IMG/VR virus record: IMGVR_UViG_3300021963_006415
Location: 1 to 64,000 of that record
Reading direction: 5' to 3' (one strand)
Origin: a virus
DNA length: 64,000 nucleotides
In this document: positions 1,291-14,568 of the stretch, in pieces
Numbering within the stretch: position 1 is the first letter of the stretch
Layout of the letters: each line of letters begins with the position of its first letter
Translations under genes and position numbers: made by a program
Notes under the pieces: model-generated
Told to the model about the DNA's origin: nothing
The model's database searches: none
Seen by the model: the letters and a program-made list of their open reading frames with translations, nothing else

Positions 1291-1881
1291 TTAGTTTAAT
1301 TCTATTATAATTTCTCTCATTAAATCTTGTGATTTACACCATTTACCACATTCTTCTGCAACTTTTTTCCATTGCTTTGATTCGTTCATTGGTGCCATAA
1401 ATGCTCCGTGAGTTGATGGGTTTGAAACAAAATCCCAACCCACTAATTCAAAATCTTCTTGCACCATTAAAGTACCATCGTTTAATTCTTTTACTGAACC
1501 TAATCCTCTACTACTAATACCTAAACGGATATTATTCTTCAACAATTCTCTAAGAATGTTTCCTGATGGAGTTGAAAGGATTTCTACAACACCAACAACA
1601 TCATCACCATCCCATCCGATTTCTCTGATATTGTGGGAAACGTTTTTAAGGTTAATAACGGGAGAATCTGGGTGGTCTAATTCACCCAATGCTCTTCTTT
1701 CTTTGATAAGTTGCTCATATTTTTGACACTCTCTTTCTAAGATTTCTTTTGGATATCTTCTATTGTTTTGATTAGGAGCACCTGCTCTTTGTAGGATACC
1801 TTTAACTAAATAAGTACCATTATCCTGCTCAACAAGTTTAGCTTCAAACAAATGAGTTTCTATCAATAATCCTTTATTCAT
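1291..1881 (-). CDS. prohead core protease, T4 gp21-like
   Basis: A 196-residue serine protease of the T4 gp21 (peptidase S80) type, which matures the prohead by cutting scaffold and capsid proteins. The sequence shows the two family landmarks: GELDHP with the probable catalytic His at about residue 70, and GISSRGLG with the probable catalytic Ser at 123-124. The size fits the family. The ATG starts immediately after the TAA of the upstream frame. Its neighbours (portal and core-type genes upstream) give the usual T4-type order; the major capsid gene would be expected further left, outside the window. Confidence 0.92.
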   Translation of the reverse strand: MNKGLLIETHLFEAKLVEQDNGTYLVKGILQRAGAPNQNNRRYPKEILERECQKYEQLIKERRALGELDHPDSPVINLKNVSHNIREIGWDGDDVVGVVEILSTPSGNILRELLKNNIRLGISSRGLGSVKELNDGTLMVQEDFELVGWDFVSNPSTHGAFMAPMNESKQWKKVAEECGKWCKSQDLMREIIIELN

Positions 1882-2301
1882 TTATTTTATATCTTTTTTT
1901 ACCTTTTCTACTGCTTTATCAGTTAACCCCCTATCATCCCACGCTTTTACTAAGGCGGTTTTTAGATGGTTTTTTAATTCATTTTCATCCAACTCTCCAT
2001 TTGTACTATCACTCATTTTTGTTATTTGAGTTTGTACATATCCCATTTTCACTATTCTATCCGCAACTCCGTTGTTTATTCCATCGTTGCTATCTAATAA
2101 CTTAGCTATATCGTTCATAACTGCTTTGTTATTCGATATAGATTCTAATATTTTGGTAACCGCTTTTTTGTATTCGTTGTTACCATTTATATAGTTTCCT
2201 ACTTTTTTAATTAATTCATAAAAAAAATAAAAAACTACTTTTCCTAAAATAGCAAAAGATATAGTTAAAAGTATTCCTTCAACTACACCTTCGTTAACTA
2301 C
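1882..2301 (-). CDS. frameshift-extension reading frame with a hydrophobic segment
   Basis: This frame is open from GTA at 2301 to TAA at 1882 (139 codons). It has no ATG, GTG or TTG before the internal ATG at 2118, so a gene called from that ATG alone would have 78 residues and leave 2119-2297 unexplained. The upstream part is protein-like: VVNEGVVEG, then a hydrophobic stretch (ILLTISFAILGKVVFYFFYE) like a membrane segment, then helical sequence running unbroken into the 78-residue part. It lies in the -1 frame relative to the preceding gene and begins exactly at that gene's A10 run. I infer production by -1 frameshifting as a fusion of about 297 residues; independent initiation at 2118 or a homopolymer sequencing error are the alternatives. 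Confidence 0.6.
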   Translation of the reverse strand, partial: VVNEGVVEGILLTISFAILGKVVFYFFYELIKKVGNYINGNNEYKKAVTKILESISNNKAVMNDIAKLLDSNDGINNGVADRIVKMGYVQTQITKMSDSTNGELDENELKNHLKTALVKAWDDRGLTDKAVEKVKKDIK

Positions 2302-2324
2302 TTTTTTTTTTGAGCCCCTTCATT
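2298..2324 (-). other. candidate programmed -1 frameshift site
   Basis: On the minus strand the last codons of the upstream gene read GCT CAA AAA AAA AAG TAG. This holds the heptamer A AAA AAG (2301-2307), the same slippery sequence used in E. coli dnaX, directly before the zero-frame stop. A GAAGGGG run (2315-2321) lies about seven bases upstream and could act like a stimulatory Shine-Dalgarno-type element. Directly downstream TAGTTAA can pair with TTAACTA about 21 bases later, a weak AT stem. The -1 frame then stays open for 139 codons. An A10 run could also permit transcriptional slippage. Confidence 0.6.
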
Positions 2325-2774
2325 TTTGGCTCTTAGTTTCGCTAAATCGCTTCCCTCAATTTCACCATCTTTATCAACATCAATTTGCTTTTGCTTATCG
2401 GTTAATTCAGCTTCTTTTAAACTTTTTAATTGTTTTTGTAATGGTTCAAACTGCTTTAAAAATTCATCGGCACTTATTCTACCAGCATTTGATGCTACCA
2501 CAAGCTTATATATTTTAGCCATAATAGGTTGCTCAGCCTTTGGATTGTTACGTTTATCGTATTCGTTTACCGAATCACCATATCCTTTCAATCTACCCTC
2601 CGATTTTGCTGTTGCAGCTTTATCCACAGCGTTGAAGAATGCTTTCTTTTCAGTATCACTCATAGAAGCGATTGATTTGCCAGTTCTGTCCAACATTGCT
2701 TTGAACATTTCTTGGTAATCGCTTTCTTCTTTAACAACTTGTTTGATAAGTTCTTTTAATTGAGTTAATTTCAT
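2298..2774 (-). CDS. prohead-core-type protein with EF-hand-like loop
   Basis: The zero-frame product has 158 residues. It starts with an amphipathic helix (MKLTQLKELIKQVVKEE) and continues as charged helical sequence. Near the C-terminus, DVDKDGEIEGSDLAKL resembles a single Ca-binding EF-hand or dockerin-type loop (about residues 132-147). It ends GAQKKK followed by TAG, on the slippery A10 run described separately. The place between portal and prohead protease matches where T4 encodes its small core proteins (gp67/gp68), so a scaffold-core role is inferred. It begins two bases after the upstream gene's stop. Confidence 0.75.
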   Translation of the reverse strand: MKLTQLKELIKQVVKEESDYQEMFKAMLDRTGKSIASMSDTEKKAFFNAVDKAATAKSEGRLKGYGDSVNEYDKRNNPKAEQPIMAKIYKLVVASNAGRISADEFLKQFEPLQKQLKSLKEAELTDKQKQIDVDKDGEIEGSDLAKLRAKNEGAQKKK

Positions 2775-4631: not shown

Positions 4632-6386
4632 TTACTCCTTATCCAAATTCTCTGTCAAAATCGTCTTTTTATTACCATCCATATCCTTAAATACTTCTAA
4701 ATAAGAAGTTTTTCTCGGTTTATATTTGACAGAACCTTCTTTTTGTTTAAGAGTTTTAATTCCCAATGGGTCTCTACCTTCGGGATGGTCATCTTTACCA
4801 TATCTAACCGGGTCTTTTGGTCTACCAACTCCATCTTCTGCTAATTCATTTTTTATCCTCTGAATTTCTTCCTCCACATCGGTTGGAGCATCTGTTCCTG
4901 TTTCTTTTGCTGGGTCAACACCCTGCGTTTCAATAGATGTTAATCTGAACATTTGTTTAGTATCTTCTAATACTGCAACTGTTTGTTCATCTTGTTCATC
5001 TTGTGCCATTCCCATAATAGACTGATACATCCATTCTTTAGAGAACATCTTTGTTTGTTGCATTTGTTGAATCAATGCTACTTTTGATGTGTATAACTCA
5101 ACTTTCTCTTGCTCATATATTTTTGATGGAGTAGTTAGTTCTAATGAAAAATCTGTCAAACTATCATCATCAATTCCTTGCGAATATAAGTGAACGATTG
5201 CGATTTTTGTTAATTCTGAAATAAGTACTCTTTGAATTCTTTCGATTGTTTTTGCAAATCTAATATCTTGCGCTGCTAACGTTGCTTTACCATTAATATC
5301 TTCTTCGTATCCTAAAAACGCTTTAGGAATCTTTAAAGATGACATCAATTTATTTTTAAGGTAATTGATATCATCAATCATATTATATTCTAATCCTTTC
5401 AATGTATCGATAGATGTACCATTATCACTACCACGAACTGGCATATAGTAATCTTCGATAAGGTTCTGCATATTATATTTTAAATTATACTCACCTGTTT
5501 TTTCATCAACAAAAGGAACTTTTTTAGATGCATTGATAATCTTTTGCATATAGTTATCCACTTCGTTTGGTGGGATATTACCAACATCTACTTTGAAAAT
5601 CCTCTTTTCAGGAGCTCTCATTACTCTATGAATTAACATAGCATCTTCCATAAGAGATAGCTGCTTCCAAACCCTTCTACCACCTTCAATCATAGATTTT
5701 CCGTAAGGTAAGAAGTTTGCATCTGAATTTAAACGGAAGTGAGCTACTTCATAGTTTTCGTATTCTTTTTTATTTCCTGCGTTAGCTGGAGAATAACCAC
5801 TATTTGGATTCATAAATGGTGAATATACGAATTTTACTCTTTGAGGATTTTGTATATCAAACCCTTCAACTCTACTTGTTTCATAAACAGACATTGGCTG
5901 TACGTTAACAATACCCAACCCTTCTGCCATTTCTAATTGTAAAAATAAATCACCATACTTTACTAAATTTCTAGTCCAAGGCCATAATGTAAATTCTATA
6001 TTCATAATATCATAAAACAAATTTTCTAAAATTTGCTTTACATTATCATCTGGGTGATGTATTTTTAATATATTACCTTGTTCGTTTTTTGCGGTACATT
6101 CATCAGCGTATATATCTAATGCCGATGATAAAATCGGGTCCATATCCATTGAATCGTAATCTCTAAACAAGTCAATTCTAACTTGTTGATAAGCCATAGC
6201 CGATTCTATTAAACCTCCACTAAATTGTGGGGTTCTCATACGCATGTACCTGTCTACTAAGTTTGTTGTTAAACTTTGATGTTCGTCTGTGTCTATTACC
6301 TTAATACCCTTTTCTGTTTTACGAACTATGGTATTAGTTGAAAATAGTTTTTGTAACCTACCAAAAAATGATTTATCTGATGCCAT
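4632..6386 (-). CDS. portal vertex protein, T4 gp20-like
   Basis: A 584-residue portal protein that forms the dodecameric ring through which DNA enters and leaves the head. The size, the N-terminal MASDKSFFGRLQKLF and the central portal-type block (MDPILSSALDIYADECT, then KYGDLFLQLE) match T4 gp20-like portals. A further family feature is the segment on loading and nucleic-acid contacts around NKLMSSLKIPKAFLGYEEDI. It sits between the Cys-rich protein and core-type proteins, downstream of the terminase, in the usual T4-type order. The C-terminal 80 residues are charged and probably flexible. Confidence 0.93.
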   Translation of the reverse strand: MASDKSFFGRLQKLFSTNTIVRKTEKGIKVIDTDEHQSLTTNLVDRYMRMRTPQFSGGLIESAMAYQQVRIDLFRDYDSMDMDPILSSALDIYADECTAKNEQGNILKIHHPDDNVKQILENLFYDIMNIEFTLWPWTRNLVKYGDLFLQLEMAEGLGIVNVQPMSVYETSRVEGFDIQNPQRVKFVYSPFMNPNSGYSPANAGNKKEYENYEVAHFRLNSDANFLPYGKSMIEGGRRVWKQLSLMEDAMLIHRVMRAPEKRIFKVDVGNIPPNEVDNYMQKIINASKKVPFVDEKTGEYNLKYNMQNLIEDYYMPVRGSDNGTSIDTLKGLEYNMIDDINYLKNKLMSSLKIPKAFLGYEEDINGKATLAAQDIRFAKTIERIQRVLISELTKIAIVHLYSQGIDDDSLTDFSLELTTPSKIYEQEKVELYTSKVALIQQMQQTKMFSKEWMYQSIMGMAQDEQDEQTVAVLEDTKQMFRLTSIETQGVDPAKETGTDAPTDVEEEIQRIKNELAEDGVGRPKDPVRYGKDDHPEGRDPLGIKTLKQKEGSVKYKPRKTSYLEVFKDMDGNKKTILTENLDKE

Positions 6387-7556: not shown

Positions 7557-9164
7557 TTAACGAAGTAACCAAGTTAGATTTTCTTTCTCTCCTCTACCCA
7601 ACTCCATTTCATATGGATTTTTCTGCTGCCAGTTAGAAGTATATACCCCTGTACTGTTTTGTATTGTGGTTGCATTCAACATATTTCTTGTCAAATCAAT
7701 ACCTTCTTGTCTTAAACGAAGTGCGGTATTTCTAACCCATAATCCAATTCCTAACGCCATTACCAAGTCATCATTATATCCTTTCATTGCTTCCGCTCTA
7801 CCACCATTCCAAATAAATGTAAACAATTCATCTATCAATCTATTAGAACGAATCAAAATATCCTTATCAGTCATATAGGTATCCAATGCTGATATAATCA
7901 AAGGACGGGTTTTAGATGTTGTAGAAAATCCTGCAACCATTCCCCTTTCCTGTCTATAATATTTGTTAGACATTTGTTTTTCAACATCTACATATTGTAA
8001 ATCGTTACTCATATAGAATAGATTCGGATATCCTCTATCTATAATTTGCTGAATACAAGCCCAACCTACGTTTGAGTTCTCCACTACTAACAATGCGTTA
8101 TTATATTCAGTTGCTAATGCGGTTAAAAAGTTTCCAAAATCTTTTGTGTCAATCTTACCTCTATATTCACCAACTTGCGATGAATCTTCTATATCAATGA
8201 TTTGAGCAGTAGAATAGTCACTTCCATCTCCTCTCGCCACGTCGGCGGATATCATATATTGTCTATTGTAATTAGGATGTTCCCATATCCAAAGATTTCC
8301 ATCGAATCCTCTCTTTTCTACGGGCTCCATAACGTATGTATCTTTATACCACGTTAGTAATGCCGGGTCGATTACAGTATCACCCGAACCAATAAAGTCA
8401 CAATCACATTCTTGTGCTGCTCCTTTAACTCCTAAGATACGAGTTTGCTCATCTCTCCACGCTTGGTTTCTTTCAGGGTGTACAGTCCAATGTAAATTGA
8501 TACAATTGAACCCATTTGCACCACTTTCACCTTCTACCCACATTTTATGGAACCAGTTACCCACACCATTAGGAGTAGATAATACGATTGCCGAACCACC
8601 TGTTGATAAGGTAGATTGTGCTGATAACCAAATTTCATCAATATCTCTAATGAATGCCGCCTCATCCACAACTAATAGTGATAGGGCTTCAGAACGTCCG
8701 GCATCTGGAGAAGATGCGATTGCTTTTACTTGTGAGCCGTTCTTTAATTTAAGCGATAGTTTGTTATCTTCAACGGATGAATTACCACCATCTCTTAACC
8801 ATACAGGCAGTAAATCGTGCATAACCCTAACCTTCTCTACTAAGTTTTTTGCAACAGTCACTTTAGTTGCAATAACCAACGCATTGAAGTCTTGGTTGAA
8901 TAACATCTTCCAAAGAATAAAGCCCGCCGATAAAGTTGATAAACCTAATTGGCGGGATTTAAGAATGATGTTAAATCTATTATCTTTAAAATCATCTAAA
9001 CAATTTTCCTGAAATGGGTATAAATGAAAAGGTATTTTTCCTCTCGTTGGGTGCTGAATCACACAATACTTTTTCATAAAGTATATTGGGTCTAAAGCAC
9101 ACTTCTTATACTCATCGGCGATGATTTCTTTTAGAGTCTTTTTAGGTTGCCCTTGAACACTCAT
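7557..9164 (-). CDS. terL: terminase large subunit (ATPase and nuclease)
   Basis: A 535-residue DNA-packaging motor of the T4 gp17 type. The ATPase domain shows a Walker A variant KSRQLGLST (about 69-77), Walker B VVDEAA (165-170) and a coupling motif LSTPNG (195-200). The C-terminal RNase H-like nuclease has its three acidic blocks: SADVARGDGSDYS (Asp about 308), VVENSNVG (Glu about 362) and NDDLVMALG near 465. The ATG overlaps the upstream TAA by one base. It pumps DNA through the portal encoded nearby and cuts concatemers. All key residues appear intact. Confidence 0.96.
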   Translation of the reverse strand: MSVQGQPKKTLKEIIADEYKKCALDPIYFMKKYCVIQHPTRGKIPFHLYPFQENCLDDFKDNRFNIILKSRQLGLSTLSAGFILWKMLFNQDFNALVIATKVTVAKNLVEKVRVMHDLLPVWLRDGGNSSVEDNKLSLKLKNGSQVKAIASSPDAGRSEALSLLVVDEAAFIRDIDEIWLSAQSTLSTGGSAIVLSTPNGVGNWFHKMWVEGESGANGFNCINLHWTVHPERNQAWRDEQTRILGVKGAAQECDCDFIGSGDTVIDPALLTWYKDTYVMEPVEKRGFDGNLWIWEHPNYNRQYMISADVARGDGSDYSTAQIIDIEDSSQVGEYRGKIDTKDFGNFLTALATEYNNALLVVENSNVGWACIQQIIDRGYPNLFYMSNDLQYVDVEKQMSNKYYRQERGMVAGFSTTSKTRPLIISALDTYMTDKDILIRSNRLIDELFTFIWNGGRAEAMKGYNDDLVMALGIGLWVRNTALRLRQEGIDLTRNMLNATTIQNSTGVYTSNWQQKNPYEMELGRGEKENLTWLLR

Positions 9165-10539: not shown

Positions 10540-13500
10540 TTATCTTCCAAACTTAAAAATTCCTAAAATTTGATTCAACGGAGCGAATGTGCCCGTTAAT
10601 TTATAGGTATTTCCTTTGTAAAAGAATACTAATCCTTCGTTTGGAACTAACTTTTCAAATCCACCAATAGCGTTTAATCTAGCCAATTCCTTTTCCAATC
10701 TTTTTATTTGAGCTTCACTACCACCACTTCTGATATCAGATATTGATGATTCTAATGATGTTTTAATTGATTGTAAAGCCGCATCAGGCTGAGCTGTTAG
10801 TACTGAACTCATAAATGAAAGAACTTCTGCGCCAACTCCTAAAAAGATATCTTCAAATTTACGAAGGTTTCCTTTCATAATTTTATCCTTTGCATCCTTA
10901 TCAACACCATCTGCCCACTTTCTGGCATCCTCATCTGCAATTGATTTAATTGTAAATGATTTATTATCAAATGCCCATCTTCTTGCTAATCCTTCTTTTT
11001 CTAATTGTGCTAAATTCTTTTTTGATTTGTTTACAAAATTCATCCACCAAGCATAGTGATATTCAGCTACACCATCTCTATCGGATAATCCGAATTCAGA
11101 TTGTAGTTTGGATAACATACCATTAAACTTACCTTTTTGAGAACTTAACTTTTCATCCTTTGGTAACTTTGTAATTGGAGGTCCTTGAATTGTGTAAGTG
11201 TCTTGTACGTGCTTATTGATTTGTTTAATCATAGATGCTAATTTACTTTCAGCACCTTTTACACTACCTATTGCATTTCCTTTCTCATCGTATTCAACCA
11301 CATTATGGAATATTAATAGATTTTGTCCATATGGGATTACGTTTGCGTTTTGTGGATAGATTACTTCTAAATTACAAAATGCTGAACCATCTTTGAATAT
11401 GCTTTGTCTTTCTTTTTCGCTCAATCCGCTAATTGCTGAATATAAATCTCTCATTGCGAAATTATATGCATCACTCAATGCACCTCTACCGCCAAATTTA
11501 GATGCCAACGCATTCATATCTAAAGCGCTTGCTCCACCATTTGCCAAATGTCCTTTATTACGAGCTGCAATTAACTTACCATTTTTCCAACTGATTGCTA
11601 ATGCCTGTCCATCGGTTTTCTCTCTTACTACTCCCAATTTACCATCTAACGCATTATTAACAATTTTTTTTAAATCACCAAATGTAAGATTCATTGAAAT
11701 ATCAAATGGATGATTCATATGCCCATATGCACCACCTTCACTAATCATTTGTTTAGATTCGTAAATGTGTCCATTTCTTTTACCAAAATCTCTTAATAAA
11801 ATTCCAGCAGCTGCATTAGCTTCGTTTTCAACATCAGAACCGGTTGAACCATCTTCATATCCACCAATAGTTCCAACTTGTCTTTGTTTAAGGTGTACTA
11901 ATTCGTGTGCTAATGTTCTAAGAATATCTGGTAAACTTCTATTACTTACATAAACAAATATTTCATCGGTCTTAGGGTCATATCCTCCATAAGATTTGAA
12001 TGAAGTAGCAAATTCATTATCTTTTACTAATCGTATTCCAAATGGAAATTGGTCTAAAGATAACCTATCTTTTGCAAATTTAATAAACTCACCTATAGTC
12101 TGAGCTTTACTTTTTTTTTGCTCTGGAGCTGGAACTTCTTCTTTTAATAACCCCAACTTAACAGACATATCAGTTATTTCTTCATAATCTGTATCTCTTA
12201 AACTTCTTTCTACTTCTCTTCTATTTGCATTTGGGTCTGCACAAACGGCTGCTCCTATTTTTTTTCTACCAAATGAACCAGCTCTATCCCACATTTTCAT
12301 AATAGCTTTGTAATGCCAATCGCCATGTCCTACTTCATTAAATGCAGATGGTGTTTTTATTCTTACCCAACCACCCCAACGAAACACTTTAGCGGGTATT
12401 GGTAATGTAGAGCCTAATGGTAATTTATGCTGATACTTTTTATCAATTCCAATTACTTTTGTAACAAAATCCCTAGTCTTATTATCAGCACCTATTAATT
12501 CAACTTCTACTTCAACAGGCTGTCCACCTATTTTAATTTTACCTTTAAAAAATCCTTTATTGATTTCATTTATAGTTCTAAATGTAGTTGCTTGCTTACC
12601 ATTAATTGTTGGCATTCCGTGGTCATCAGTTCCAATATCTTTAACTTGTATTTTTTTGTTTTTGAACTTGCCCATTAAAACAATATCACCTTTATCAACA
12701 TCTACATTTACATCTTCTTTAACTAAATCTCCAAAATCTTTACCTTGCTTATATGATTTAATAGATTGTAATAATTGTTCATCTGACATTTCAAATGTTT
12801 CCATTTTCTCTGCCATTTTGTTAACTACGTTCTGAATATATTTTTCAGAATTGAATTCTTCGTTTTCATTAACTAATGAACGTAGTTCTAATAATCCCAT
12901 CGTTACTCCTGCCAACCCTGCTCCACCAACTGCGGCTTGAGTACCACCCAATCCCATCGATTCTAATGCAACGTGTTTGATTGCATCTTTACCTAAGTGT
13001 GCGGCAAATCCACCGGCACCGTGAGTAAATGCCCCAATAGCACCATGTCCTACCGCAGATGCTGCTCCGCCTAATCCTGCTCCGCCTGCTATTGCTTTTG
13101 CTCCGGCAGCTAAACCACTTCCTAATGCAACACTAGCAACTAAAAGACCTAAATCTTTATAAAAATGCTTCATATGATGGACTTGCTCTTTTCTTTTTTC
13201 ATCAGAATATTCCCATTCACCAGTTTCTTTATTTTTAGTAGAACCAATCTTTTGCCCACTTGCTAATGCTTTATGCGCATCATATGCACCTTTTAGCATT
13301 TCGCCTTTATGTTGTAAAACGTGTCCAATTGCTTTAACAACTTTAGTATCTGCTACTTTCTTTATACCATCTTTTAAAGAGTTCATAAACTTAGAACCCT
13401 TTTTATGCTCACCATTATTGATAAACTCCTGCTCTTCTTTACCTAAAGATTTAATTTCATTATCTAATGCAGATTTCAGTTCTTCAGCTTTTTTTTCTTT

Positions 13501-14568
13501 TGCTACTCTATCTTCTGCATTTGATTTTAATTCAGCACCACTTAATTTTTGTTCTGGTGGTGGAGCTTGTTTTTCTCCACTCTTTTCAGAACCATCTTTT
13601 GGTTTAGCATCTACTTTACCTTGAGCAGTATCACCTTTTTTAACAGGCTGACCTGGTTGAGGCGGTGTTTCTGCTTTTTTCTTCGGTTCGTTTGCTGGCG
13701 CATCATCCGGGCCAACTAACTTTTTAGCCTGAATATGTGCTTCGTGGTCTTTTGGTAATCTTAATGCGTTTCTTACACTAATTTTTTTCTTTTTACCATC
13801 TGCTGCAGTATATGTAAGCTCCTTATCCATATTTGGATTAGGCTCTTCTTCTAAAAAGTATTCTTCAATAAAATTATCTGCTTCAAATACTAATTTTGCA
13901 ATTTGTTCTGCAATAGGGTCATATACATATGAATCATCCGTAGTTGCTACTGAACGAATATCATCATTTTTCTTTTGTATCTTCTTAACATCCTCTTTGG
14001 ATGGATAACCTTTTATGAATTCTTCTTTTACTAATTTTTTAGTTATCATTTTATAAATTTCTTTATCAAATTTTGGGTATGCTTTCAAAAATAATTTTTC
14101 AGCATTATCCGAACTTAACCAATTTCTTACATCAGTTCCACTAATTGCTTCTGGTTCAGGTGGTATAATATAAGTATAACCAATCTCATCGTAACCATAT
14201 CCAGCCTTACCTTTGTATGGTTTAAAATATTTACCTGCTAATCTATCCGCATCTTTTTGTCCAACAGCTGCAATATATTGAGTAGTTTTACCATCGAATT
14301 TAGAAAGTATTTCTTTTGGAGCGTATGGGTTTGATACTTGTACAATTTTGTTTGGTGGAATACCAAACATTTTACCCATTATAACAACTTTCTCTTTGAA
14401 ATTAAACGGAGATTTACCACTATCGGTTTTATCGGATGTGCCAATATAAACGTTATTAGCACCAAATTTTGACACTAATTTTTGATAGGCAGCGTAATGT
14501 CCTTTGTGAAAAGGTTGAAAACGGCCCGAATATACAACTATGGTTTTTTTGACTACTGGTTTATCCAC
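10540..14568 (-). CDS. multidomain NMNAT / metalloprotease-like / nucleic-acid-ligase-like protein
   Basis: A 1342-residue protein starting at GTG. Residues 1-180 are a nucleotidyltransferase of the NMN adenylyltransferase type: GRFQPFHKGH (15-24, with HxGH) and ISGTDVR (142-148). Next come a charged linker and a Gly/Ala-rich hydrophobic block at about 475-560, perhaps membrane-interacting. Around 886-890 HELVH with a downstream Glu-rich stretch resembles a zinc metalloprotease. From about 975 to the end it looks like an ATP-dependent RNA/DNA ligase: EKTDGQA with the candidate adenylated Lys (about 983), NLEVIYP, EGLVF, and YKLTG near 1322. It lies between the glycan cluster and packaging genes. 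Possible roles are NAD synthesis or nucleic-acid repair delivered with the particle; these are inferences. Confidence 0.85.
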   Translation of the reverse strand: MDKPVVKKTIVVYSGRFQPFHKGHYAAYQKLVSKFGANNVYIGTSDKTDSGKSPFNFKEKVVIMGKMFGIPPNKIVQVSNPYAPKEILSKFDGKTTQYIAAVGQKDADRLAGKYFKPYKGKAGYGYDEIGYTYIIPPEPEAISGTDVRNWLSSDNAEKLFLKAYPKFDKEIYKMITKKLVKEEFIKGYPSKEDVKKIQKKNDDIRSVATTDDSYVYDPIAEQIAKLVFEADNFIEEYFLEEEPNPNMDKELTYTAADGKKKKISVRNALRLPKDHEAHIQAKKLVGPDDAPANEPKKKAETPPQPGQPVKKGDTAQGKVDAKPKDGSEKSGEKQAPPPEQKLSGAELKSNAEDRVAKEKKAEELKSALDNEIKSLGKEEQEFINNGEHKKGSKFMNSLKDGIKKVADTKVVKAIGHVLQHKGEMLKGAYDAHKALASGQKIGSTKNKETGEWEYSDEKRKEQVHHMKHFYKDLGLLVASVALGSGLAAGAKAIAGGAGLGGAASAVGHGAIGAFTHGAGGFAAHLGKDAIKHVALESMGLGGTQAAVGGAGLAGVTMGLLELRSLVNENEEFNSEKYIQNVVNKMAEKMETFEMSDEQLLQSIKSYKQGKDFGDLVKEDVNVDVDKGDIVLMGKFKNKKIQVKDIGTDDHGMPTINGKQATTFRTINEINKGFFKGKIKIGGQPVEVEVELIGADNKTRDFVTKVIGIDKKYQHKLPLGSTLPIPAKVFRWGGWVRIKTPSAFNEVGHGDWHYKAIMKMWDRAGSFGRKKIGAAVCADPNANRREVERSLRDTDYEEITDMSVKLGLLKEEVPAPEQKKSKAQTIGEFIKFAKDRLSLDQFPFGIRLVKDNEFATSFKSYGGYDPKTDEIFVYVSNRSLPDILRTLAHELVHLKQRQVGTIGGYEDGSTGSDVENEANAAAGILLRDFGKRNGHIYESKQMISEGGAYGHMNHPFDISMNLTFGDLKKIVNNALDGKLGVVREKTDGQALAISWKNGKLIAARNKGHLANGGASALDMNALASKFGGRGALSDAYNFAMRDLYSAISGLSEKERQSIFKDGSAFCNLEVIYPQNANVIPYGQNLLIFHNVVEYDEKGNAIGSVKGAESKLASMIKQINKHVQDTYTIQGPPITKLPKDEKLSSQKGKFNGMLSKLQSEFGLSDRDGVAEYHYAWWMNFVNKSKKNLAQLEKEGLARRWAFDNKSFTIKSIADEDARKWADGVDKDAKDKIMKGNLRKFEDIFLGVGAEVLSFMSSVLTAQPDAALQSIKTSLESSISDIRSGGSEAQIKRLEKELARLNAIGGFEKLVPNEGLVFFYKGNTYKLTGTFAPLNQILGIFKFGR

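Follow-up and report, generated by a model that had tools for sequence, protein, structure and literature searches.

A conserved A-run joins a probable prohead core gene to a hidden −1-frame extension in uncultured T4-like phages

Introduction

In Escherichia coli dnaX, −1 frameshifting at the heptamer A_AAA_AAG, with a stem-loop several nucleotides away downstream, shortens the product; a recoding review gives this heptamer as the shiftiest among those compared in E. coli (PMC5009743). Thermus thermophilus dnaX and insertion sequences employ transcriptional slippage instead, on runs of at least nine A's that are under selection there and avoided elsewhere. Among phages, T7 10A/10B, T3, Lactobacillus A2, Listeria PSA/A118 and lambda G/GT make two products from one start, the minority product carrying a C-terminal extension for virion assembly; these frameshifts extend capsid or tail proteins, often by Ig-like domains. 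T4 proheads, in turn, form on the inner membrane and leave it after cleavage, and T4 internal proteins carry a 10-residue targeting leader (PMC9958956, PMC9026906). The T4 protease gp21 cuts C-terminal to a Glu that follows a short motif (PMC9026906). Membrane attachment and release of T4-type proheads are only partly understood.

Here we describe a junction in uncultured T4-like phages that combines traits of these systems. It has the heptamer and the spaced stem-loop of E. coli dnaX, but its run measures A9–A12, it lacks a Shine-Dalgarno context, and the shift would add a long extension. With the transcriptional-slippage cases it shares a selected run of at least nine A's, avoided elsewhere, and it differs from them by a structure past the run and a 0-frame stop directly after it. 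As in T7 and the other phages named, one start would yield two products, the minor one extended; unlike there, the protein extended is a small core-type protein beside the prohead protease, and the addition is a domain with a putative membrane helix. The locus position, a short leader ending in [ILV]xE and the adjoining gp21-family protease recall T4 prohead core and internal proteins, and the scheme proposed below resembles the membrane-bound prohead assembly of T4; however, homology to the T4 proteins is not detectable, and no frameshift is known at that place in T4. Searches of open-licence papers turned up no account of frameshifting within a prohead core gene, and neither "prohead" nor "scaffold" occurs in the available portion of the recoding review (PMC5009743).

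Results

A T4-like head locus with a probable prohead core gene

The window—the whole stretch of DNA analysed here—comprises the first 64 kb of the 92.6-kb virus record IMGVR_UViG_3300021963_006415. Its GC content is 30%, and its minus strand holds nearly every gene. None of the 36 gene starts checked in the window has a Shine-Dalgarno-like motif, which suggests a Bacteroidota host. The head genes follow one another as terminase, portal, two genes without assigned function, core gene and prohead protease, a series that by its predicted products matches a T4-like head locus:

7557–9164: terminase, in the head series of the window
4632..6386, minus strand: T4-like portal protein (gp20; PF07230, E 8.7e-73), upstream of the core gene in a shared, operon-like series
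2298..2774, minus strand: core gene, 158 codons, probable prohead core protein, with a leader, a conserved helical domain, an EF-hand-like loop and a KKK end
2727..2774, minus strand: leader MKLTQLKELIKQVVKE, resembling a T4 capsid targeting sequence or propeptide, ending in [ILV]xE; putative function
2346..2381, minus strand: conserved EF-hand/dockerin-like loop DVDKDGEIEGSD
1291..1881, minus strand: prohead core protein serine protease (Peptidase_S77, gp21-like; PF03420, E 6.6e-30; phrog_207, E 3.6e-53)

The core gene shares 66–85% identity with its relatives and encodes 158 residues in the window, against about 100 in most relatives. Glu16 of its leader is nearly invariant, and neighbouring head genes bear LNE-10, IKE-20 and LIE-8 near their N-termini. 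The loop, judged a canonical EF-hand by eye only, reaches 21.6 bits with Pfam EF-hand_7 (E 3e-4) against a curated cut-off of 30, and its match to Dockerin_1 (E 0.013) is likewise below cut-off. AF2 modelled the core protein poorly (pLDDT 62.5). An earlier sequence-only reading of this DNA had named the protein a head-core protein; the gene's place between the portal gene (followed by the two unassigned genes) and the S77-type protease gene speaks for that name, as does the leader, whereas homology does not identify the protein: Pfam and PHROGs gave no significant match to a T4-type core or internal protein family, and cultured phages returned just weak partial matches in two Vibrio phages.

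The core gene is also modular, with extra domains before the KKK in four relatives (L090, L032, L096 and L159) that retain the A-run, the stop and the extension described below. Elsewhere in the window, a 1342-residue gene (10540–14568), nucleotidyltransferase-like at its N-terminal start by eye, has a part, EVGxxDWHxKAIMK..RxLRDTDYEEI, that resembles the core-gene insert of L090, L032 and L096. Inspection by eye also picked out a small basic, ribosomal protein S21-like protein at 17–214—the corresponding head region of Microcystis phage Mel-JY01 has an annotated RpsU gene—and a long array of sugar-nucleotide, glycosyltransferase-like and SGNH-like genes between the head and tail genes (about 14.7–42 kb).

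The junction and the extension that follows it

Read directly, the core gene ends in GAA GGG GCT CAA AAA AAA AAG TAG. The elements of the junction and of the extension are:

2302..2311, minus strand: slippery run of exactly A10 (T10 on the plus strand)
2301..2307, minus strand: in-frame slippery heptamer A_AAA_AAG
2298..2300, minus strand: 0-frame stop TAG, immediately 3′ of the heptamer
1882..2301, minus strand: extension of 139 residues, −1 relative to the core gene, from GTA (2301) to the stop TAA (1882–1884)
2290..2298, minus strand: Val-Asn-Glu directly 3′ of the junction ([VI][NSDT]E, Glu invariant), candidate prohead-protease cleavage site
2230..2286, minus strand: hydrophobic helix of the extension (residues 6–24, KD19 mean 2.07), probable membrane span
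2255..2292, minus strand: hairpin of 17 bp with a 4-nt loop, 8 nt past the heptamer
2297–2304 pairing with 2246–2253: outer 8-bp stem of that hairpin

Most of what the sequence-only reading had noticed here was borne out: a core gene closing on A AAA AAG before its stop, a −1 frame open for 139 codons without ATG, GTG or TTG until 2118, a membrane-like extension, which fits the hydrophobic helix, and a stem after the slippery site, present as a fold of −23 kcal/mol (z −4.5; outer stem included). A functional part for the upstream GAAGGGG that it had also pointed out finds no support: relatives do not conserve it, and no checked gene of the window has a Shine-Dalgarno-like site.

No in-frame start lies upstream of the extension. 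The ATG at 2118 is its codon 62; in other lineages the first ATG, GTG or TTG of this frame falls anywhere from codon 5 to codon 74. Pairwise dN/dS has a median of 0.21 in the extension frame, compared with 1.02 and 1.30 in the other two, and by this measure the extension is a protein, predicted in the −1 frame, under purifying selection. Eight residues (Glu4, Tyr25, Leu30, Tyr37, Ile93, Trp121, Lys133 and Lys135) are invariant in all 46 aligned extensions. AF2 modelled the extension with a pLDDT of 88.7 and a pTM of 0.83, as a helix (residues 16–32) followed by a helical bundle (42–138). Judging by its motif, the hydrophobic helix is long enough to span a membrane and probably inserts into one, and the [VI]xE after the junction resembles a T4-type prohead protease cleavage site. 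At its 3′ end the extension adjoins the protease gene.

Searches with the extension returned little. PHROGs yielded no match for the window's extension and isolated weak ones for the 46 members scanned (best E 6e-4). A fold search of the PDB gave nothing significant, and one of BFVD found a single 204-residue phage protein, A0A6J5M8K1 (TM 0.76, 31% identity); no structural or sequence match in Pfam, PHROGs or the fold searches assigns a function. The extension was absent from cultured phages, with two chance-level matches (E 10) in the uncultured phage cr55_1, and from prokaryote genomes. It also occurs nowhere in the genomes of Mel-JY01 and Flavobacterium phage immuto, the closest cultured relatives by protease. 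Neither an Rfam match nor a tRNA turned up. Recoding of this kind hides a conserved family of 139-residue proteins from gene finders.

The −1 arrangement is conserved among relatives

Relatives were collected from metagenomic IMG/VR viral contigs, which stem from many independent metagenomes. A core-protein search gave 70 relatives, and two extension searches contributed the best 80 of 136 and the best 80 of 115; collapsing these left 74 distinct junctions long enough for comparison. In 72 of them the core gene, the A-run, the stop and a −1-frame extension stand together; in the other two the extension is a separate gene, with A10 in both. An in-frame fusion of core gene and extension was found in none of the 74. 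Runs of A9, A11 or A12 always come with compensating codons that preserve the −1 offset, so that frames fused through such runs, the outcome that would have undone the sequence-only reading, did not appear. The 0-frame stop is TAA or TAG, at the window's place or one codon later. Dozens of related viruses share this arrangement, which is therefore almost certainly genuine and functional in a large uncultured T4-like family, with a protein product predicted from these alignments.

The two exceptions (L047/L158 type) encode the extension behind its own ATG and a head-type leader, MIKLKS[IL]LIEV-MKKKS-VNEN, with the A10 run retained inside MKKKS; its MIKLKS[IL]LIE resembles the MIKLKDILKE leader of the neighbouring head gene. 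By sequence, then, the unfused extension brings a leader of its own. A downstream start, which the earlier reading had taken as contrary evidence, is confined to this clade, which has lost the frameshift arrangement; elsewhere the expectation of no separate start stood. A further set of relatives (L030, L034, L036–L039, L042–L044, L048, L057 and L059–L061) has core genes ending in LRKKD or LRKK without a run of at least nine A's; there, as in L048, the protease gene follows directly with no extension between, and in L048, a 209-kb record, the extension is absent from the rest of the record too.

A long A-run is kept at the junction and avoided elsewhere

Among the 72 frameshift junctions, the run is A10 in 42, A11 in 26, A9 in three (the clade of L192, L198 and L199) and A12 in one. 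The heptamer reads A_AAA_AAG in 61 of these distinct junctions and A_AAA_AAA in the remaining 11. The codon before the lysines varies (CAA, GAA, or another codon plus an extra AAA), the extra Lys codon being usually present when the codon ahead lacks a final AA. On the extension tree, a label combining run length and preceding base shows about 29 changes, and throughout the run never drops below nine. As far as these alignments tell, the invariant element is a run of at least nine A's, not the dnaX heptamer as such.

Such runs are rare elsewhere. Across 1.02 Mb of relatives (partly redundant), all 129 coding-strand runs of at least ten A's lie at the core/extension junction. Within the window's coding DNA, the junction A10 is the sole run of ten or more, and runs of at least nine occur twice against 7.5 expected from synonymous shuffling; every other Lys-Lys-Lys has at least one AAG interrupting the A's. 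By these counts a long A-run is kept at the junction and avoided elsewhere. Besides the junction, the window's coding DNA reaches nine A's just once, in an A9 on the coding strand at 12111–12119, within the 1342-residue gene.

Most lineages have a predicted stem-loop past the run

We scanned 49 diverged sequences for folding in 65-nt windows. The structure minimum falls exactly at the end of the run, with a mean dinucleotide z of −3.36 and a mean energy of −16.3 kcal/mol, compared with z values mostly around −0.7 away from the junction. Shuffling synonymous codons, which keeps the protein, left a mean z of −3.24, with 86% of sequences below −1.65. With structure at the junction in 82–86% of the 49 lineages, the predicted stem-loop exceeds in most of them what coding explains.

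In lineages of the VNEN type, AAYYTTGCC/GGTAARRTT forms the stem, flanked by an outer GTAAA/TTTAT; two main-stem pairs covary, UA↔CG (7) and CG↔UA (11). Two-sided changes in this stem occupy 27 cells against 15.1 in shuffles (reached in 0 of 500), but the covariation is modest: in the main helix just these two pairs vary on either side, and the number of pairs that do so shows no excess over shuffles. The window's own VVNEG lineage has a different hairpin at the corresponding place.

The hairpin is weak in some lineages that have the frameshift arrangement (z about 0 in L159; not significant in L080, L089, L093 and L011), so the structure may help without being indispensable. We considered the L047 type, with its separate ATG and no hairpin, as a control tying the hairpin to frameshifting, and rejected it: its sister L159 has the frameshift arrangement with A11 yet no hairpin, so that the hairpin is absent clade-wide. 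A second, weaker structure peak lies about +135 to +165 nt past the A-run (about 2100–2165 in the window; synonymous-shuffle mean z −1.55).

Ribosome or RNA polymerase

Features of two mechanisms meet at this junction. A heptamer of the form X_XXY_YYZ before the stop, a selected −1 ORF without a start of its own and a downstream structure are those of −1 frameshifting; A9–A12 in 72 of 72 junctions, with such runs avoided elsewhere in coding DNA, are those of transcriptional slippage. The earlier claim of a −1 programmed frameshift stands for the conserved −1 arrangement (72 of 74), whereas sequence alone cannot separate a ribosomal shift from polymerase slippage. We infer that the slippage is ribosomal; a structure 3′ of the run is still untranscribed when RNA polymerase passes, which points to the ribosome, and −1 ribosomal frameshifting on the A-run, with a minor longer product predicted, is the reading that we favour with some reservation. 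Most ribosomes would then stop just past the run and yield a soluble core protein (158 residues here), and a minority, aided by the hairpin 8–9 nt downstream, would slip back one base and read 139 more residues into a product of about 297 residues: leader, core protein, membrane helix and helical domain. Since reading would continue from the core gene, the long product would carry the core protein's N-terminal leader. Under either slippage mechanism one ATG is predicted to start two products, and both mechanisms may act at the same A-run.

That the run is never shorter than nine makes programmed transcriptional slippage alone a serious rival, albeit one we hold to be rather unlikely. Here host RNA polymerase would add or drop A's, and some mRNAs, with A11 (or A8), would encode the fusion in a single frame, which ribosomes would read in the normal way. 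A ribosomal heptamer alone would not need a run of at least nine, but a polymerase would, and despite the roughly 29 label changes none of the 72 junctions has A6–A8; the 11 without A_AAA_AAG keep the run all the same, and the absence of runs of ten or more from other sites is what slipping runs would predict. On nine A's, slippage by bacterial RNA polymerase is efficient (PMC5009743), and many bacteria select against A-runs of that length (PMC1088944). Long A-runs, however, also make ribosomes slide, A11 being needed when structure is missing (PMC4363877), so run length alone is not decisive. Nor does the conserved structure just downstream, beyond coding, have an obvious role in polymerase slippage, for which the stimulatory RNA hairpin on record lies upstream (PMC5009743). 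Two further readings dispense with slippage. The extension might be made as a separate protein, from a non-canonical start or by re-initiation past the stop; the L047/L158 gene with its own ATG indicates that it can work unfused, and many relatives have an ATG right past the stop. That ATG, though, is in the core frame rather than the extension frame, in which no start position is conserved; initiation at the window's codon 62 would forfeit both the conserved [VI]xE and the hydrophobic helix, and the A-run and the structure would go unexplained, all of which renders this reading improbable. Least credible, to the point of being nearly dismissed, is a sequencing or assembly error or a decayed gene, with a true run of 11 A's and one continuous frame: homopolymers are error-prone and one more A would fuse the frames, but relatives from many independent metagenomes keep the −1 offset, also with A9, A11 and A12, none is in frame, and the extension is under purifying selection.

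A possible role in prohead assembly

Returning to the slippage product, its leader, of the type that targets T4 proteins to the prohead core, would take it into the prohead; there, while assembly proceeds, it would tether a minority of the core subunits to the membrane, and the prohead protease would cut after [VI]xE and free the membrane domain at maturation. We infer this destination, tethering and cut from leader, helix and gene order, insertion and cleavage at the level of motifs. Carried further, the frameshift would determine how many membrane-anchored core subunits start prohead assembly on the cell membrane, and the cut at [VI]xE would release the finished prohead, a proposal that we advance as speculative and think more apt to fail than to hold. 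Its interest is that a core protein anchored in the membrane through recoding, its joint holding a candidate protease site, would link recoding, membrane attachment and maturation.

Alternatively, the extension may have no part in anchoring the prohead and could, for instance, be a membrane protein that is packaged, ejected or used in host takeover and borrows the core leader to travel in the head; this concerns function and is compatible with either slippage mechanism. T4 internal proteins ride in the head by means of such a leader and are then injected (PMC9026906), no structural or sequence match gives the extension a function, and its absence from some relatives (L048) means that it is not required in all. 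Against this, gene order places the extension between the portal and core genes and the protease, directly before the protease gene. We lean away from the non-anchor role, while taking it to have a considerable chance of being right.
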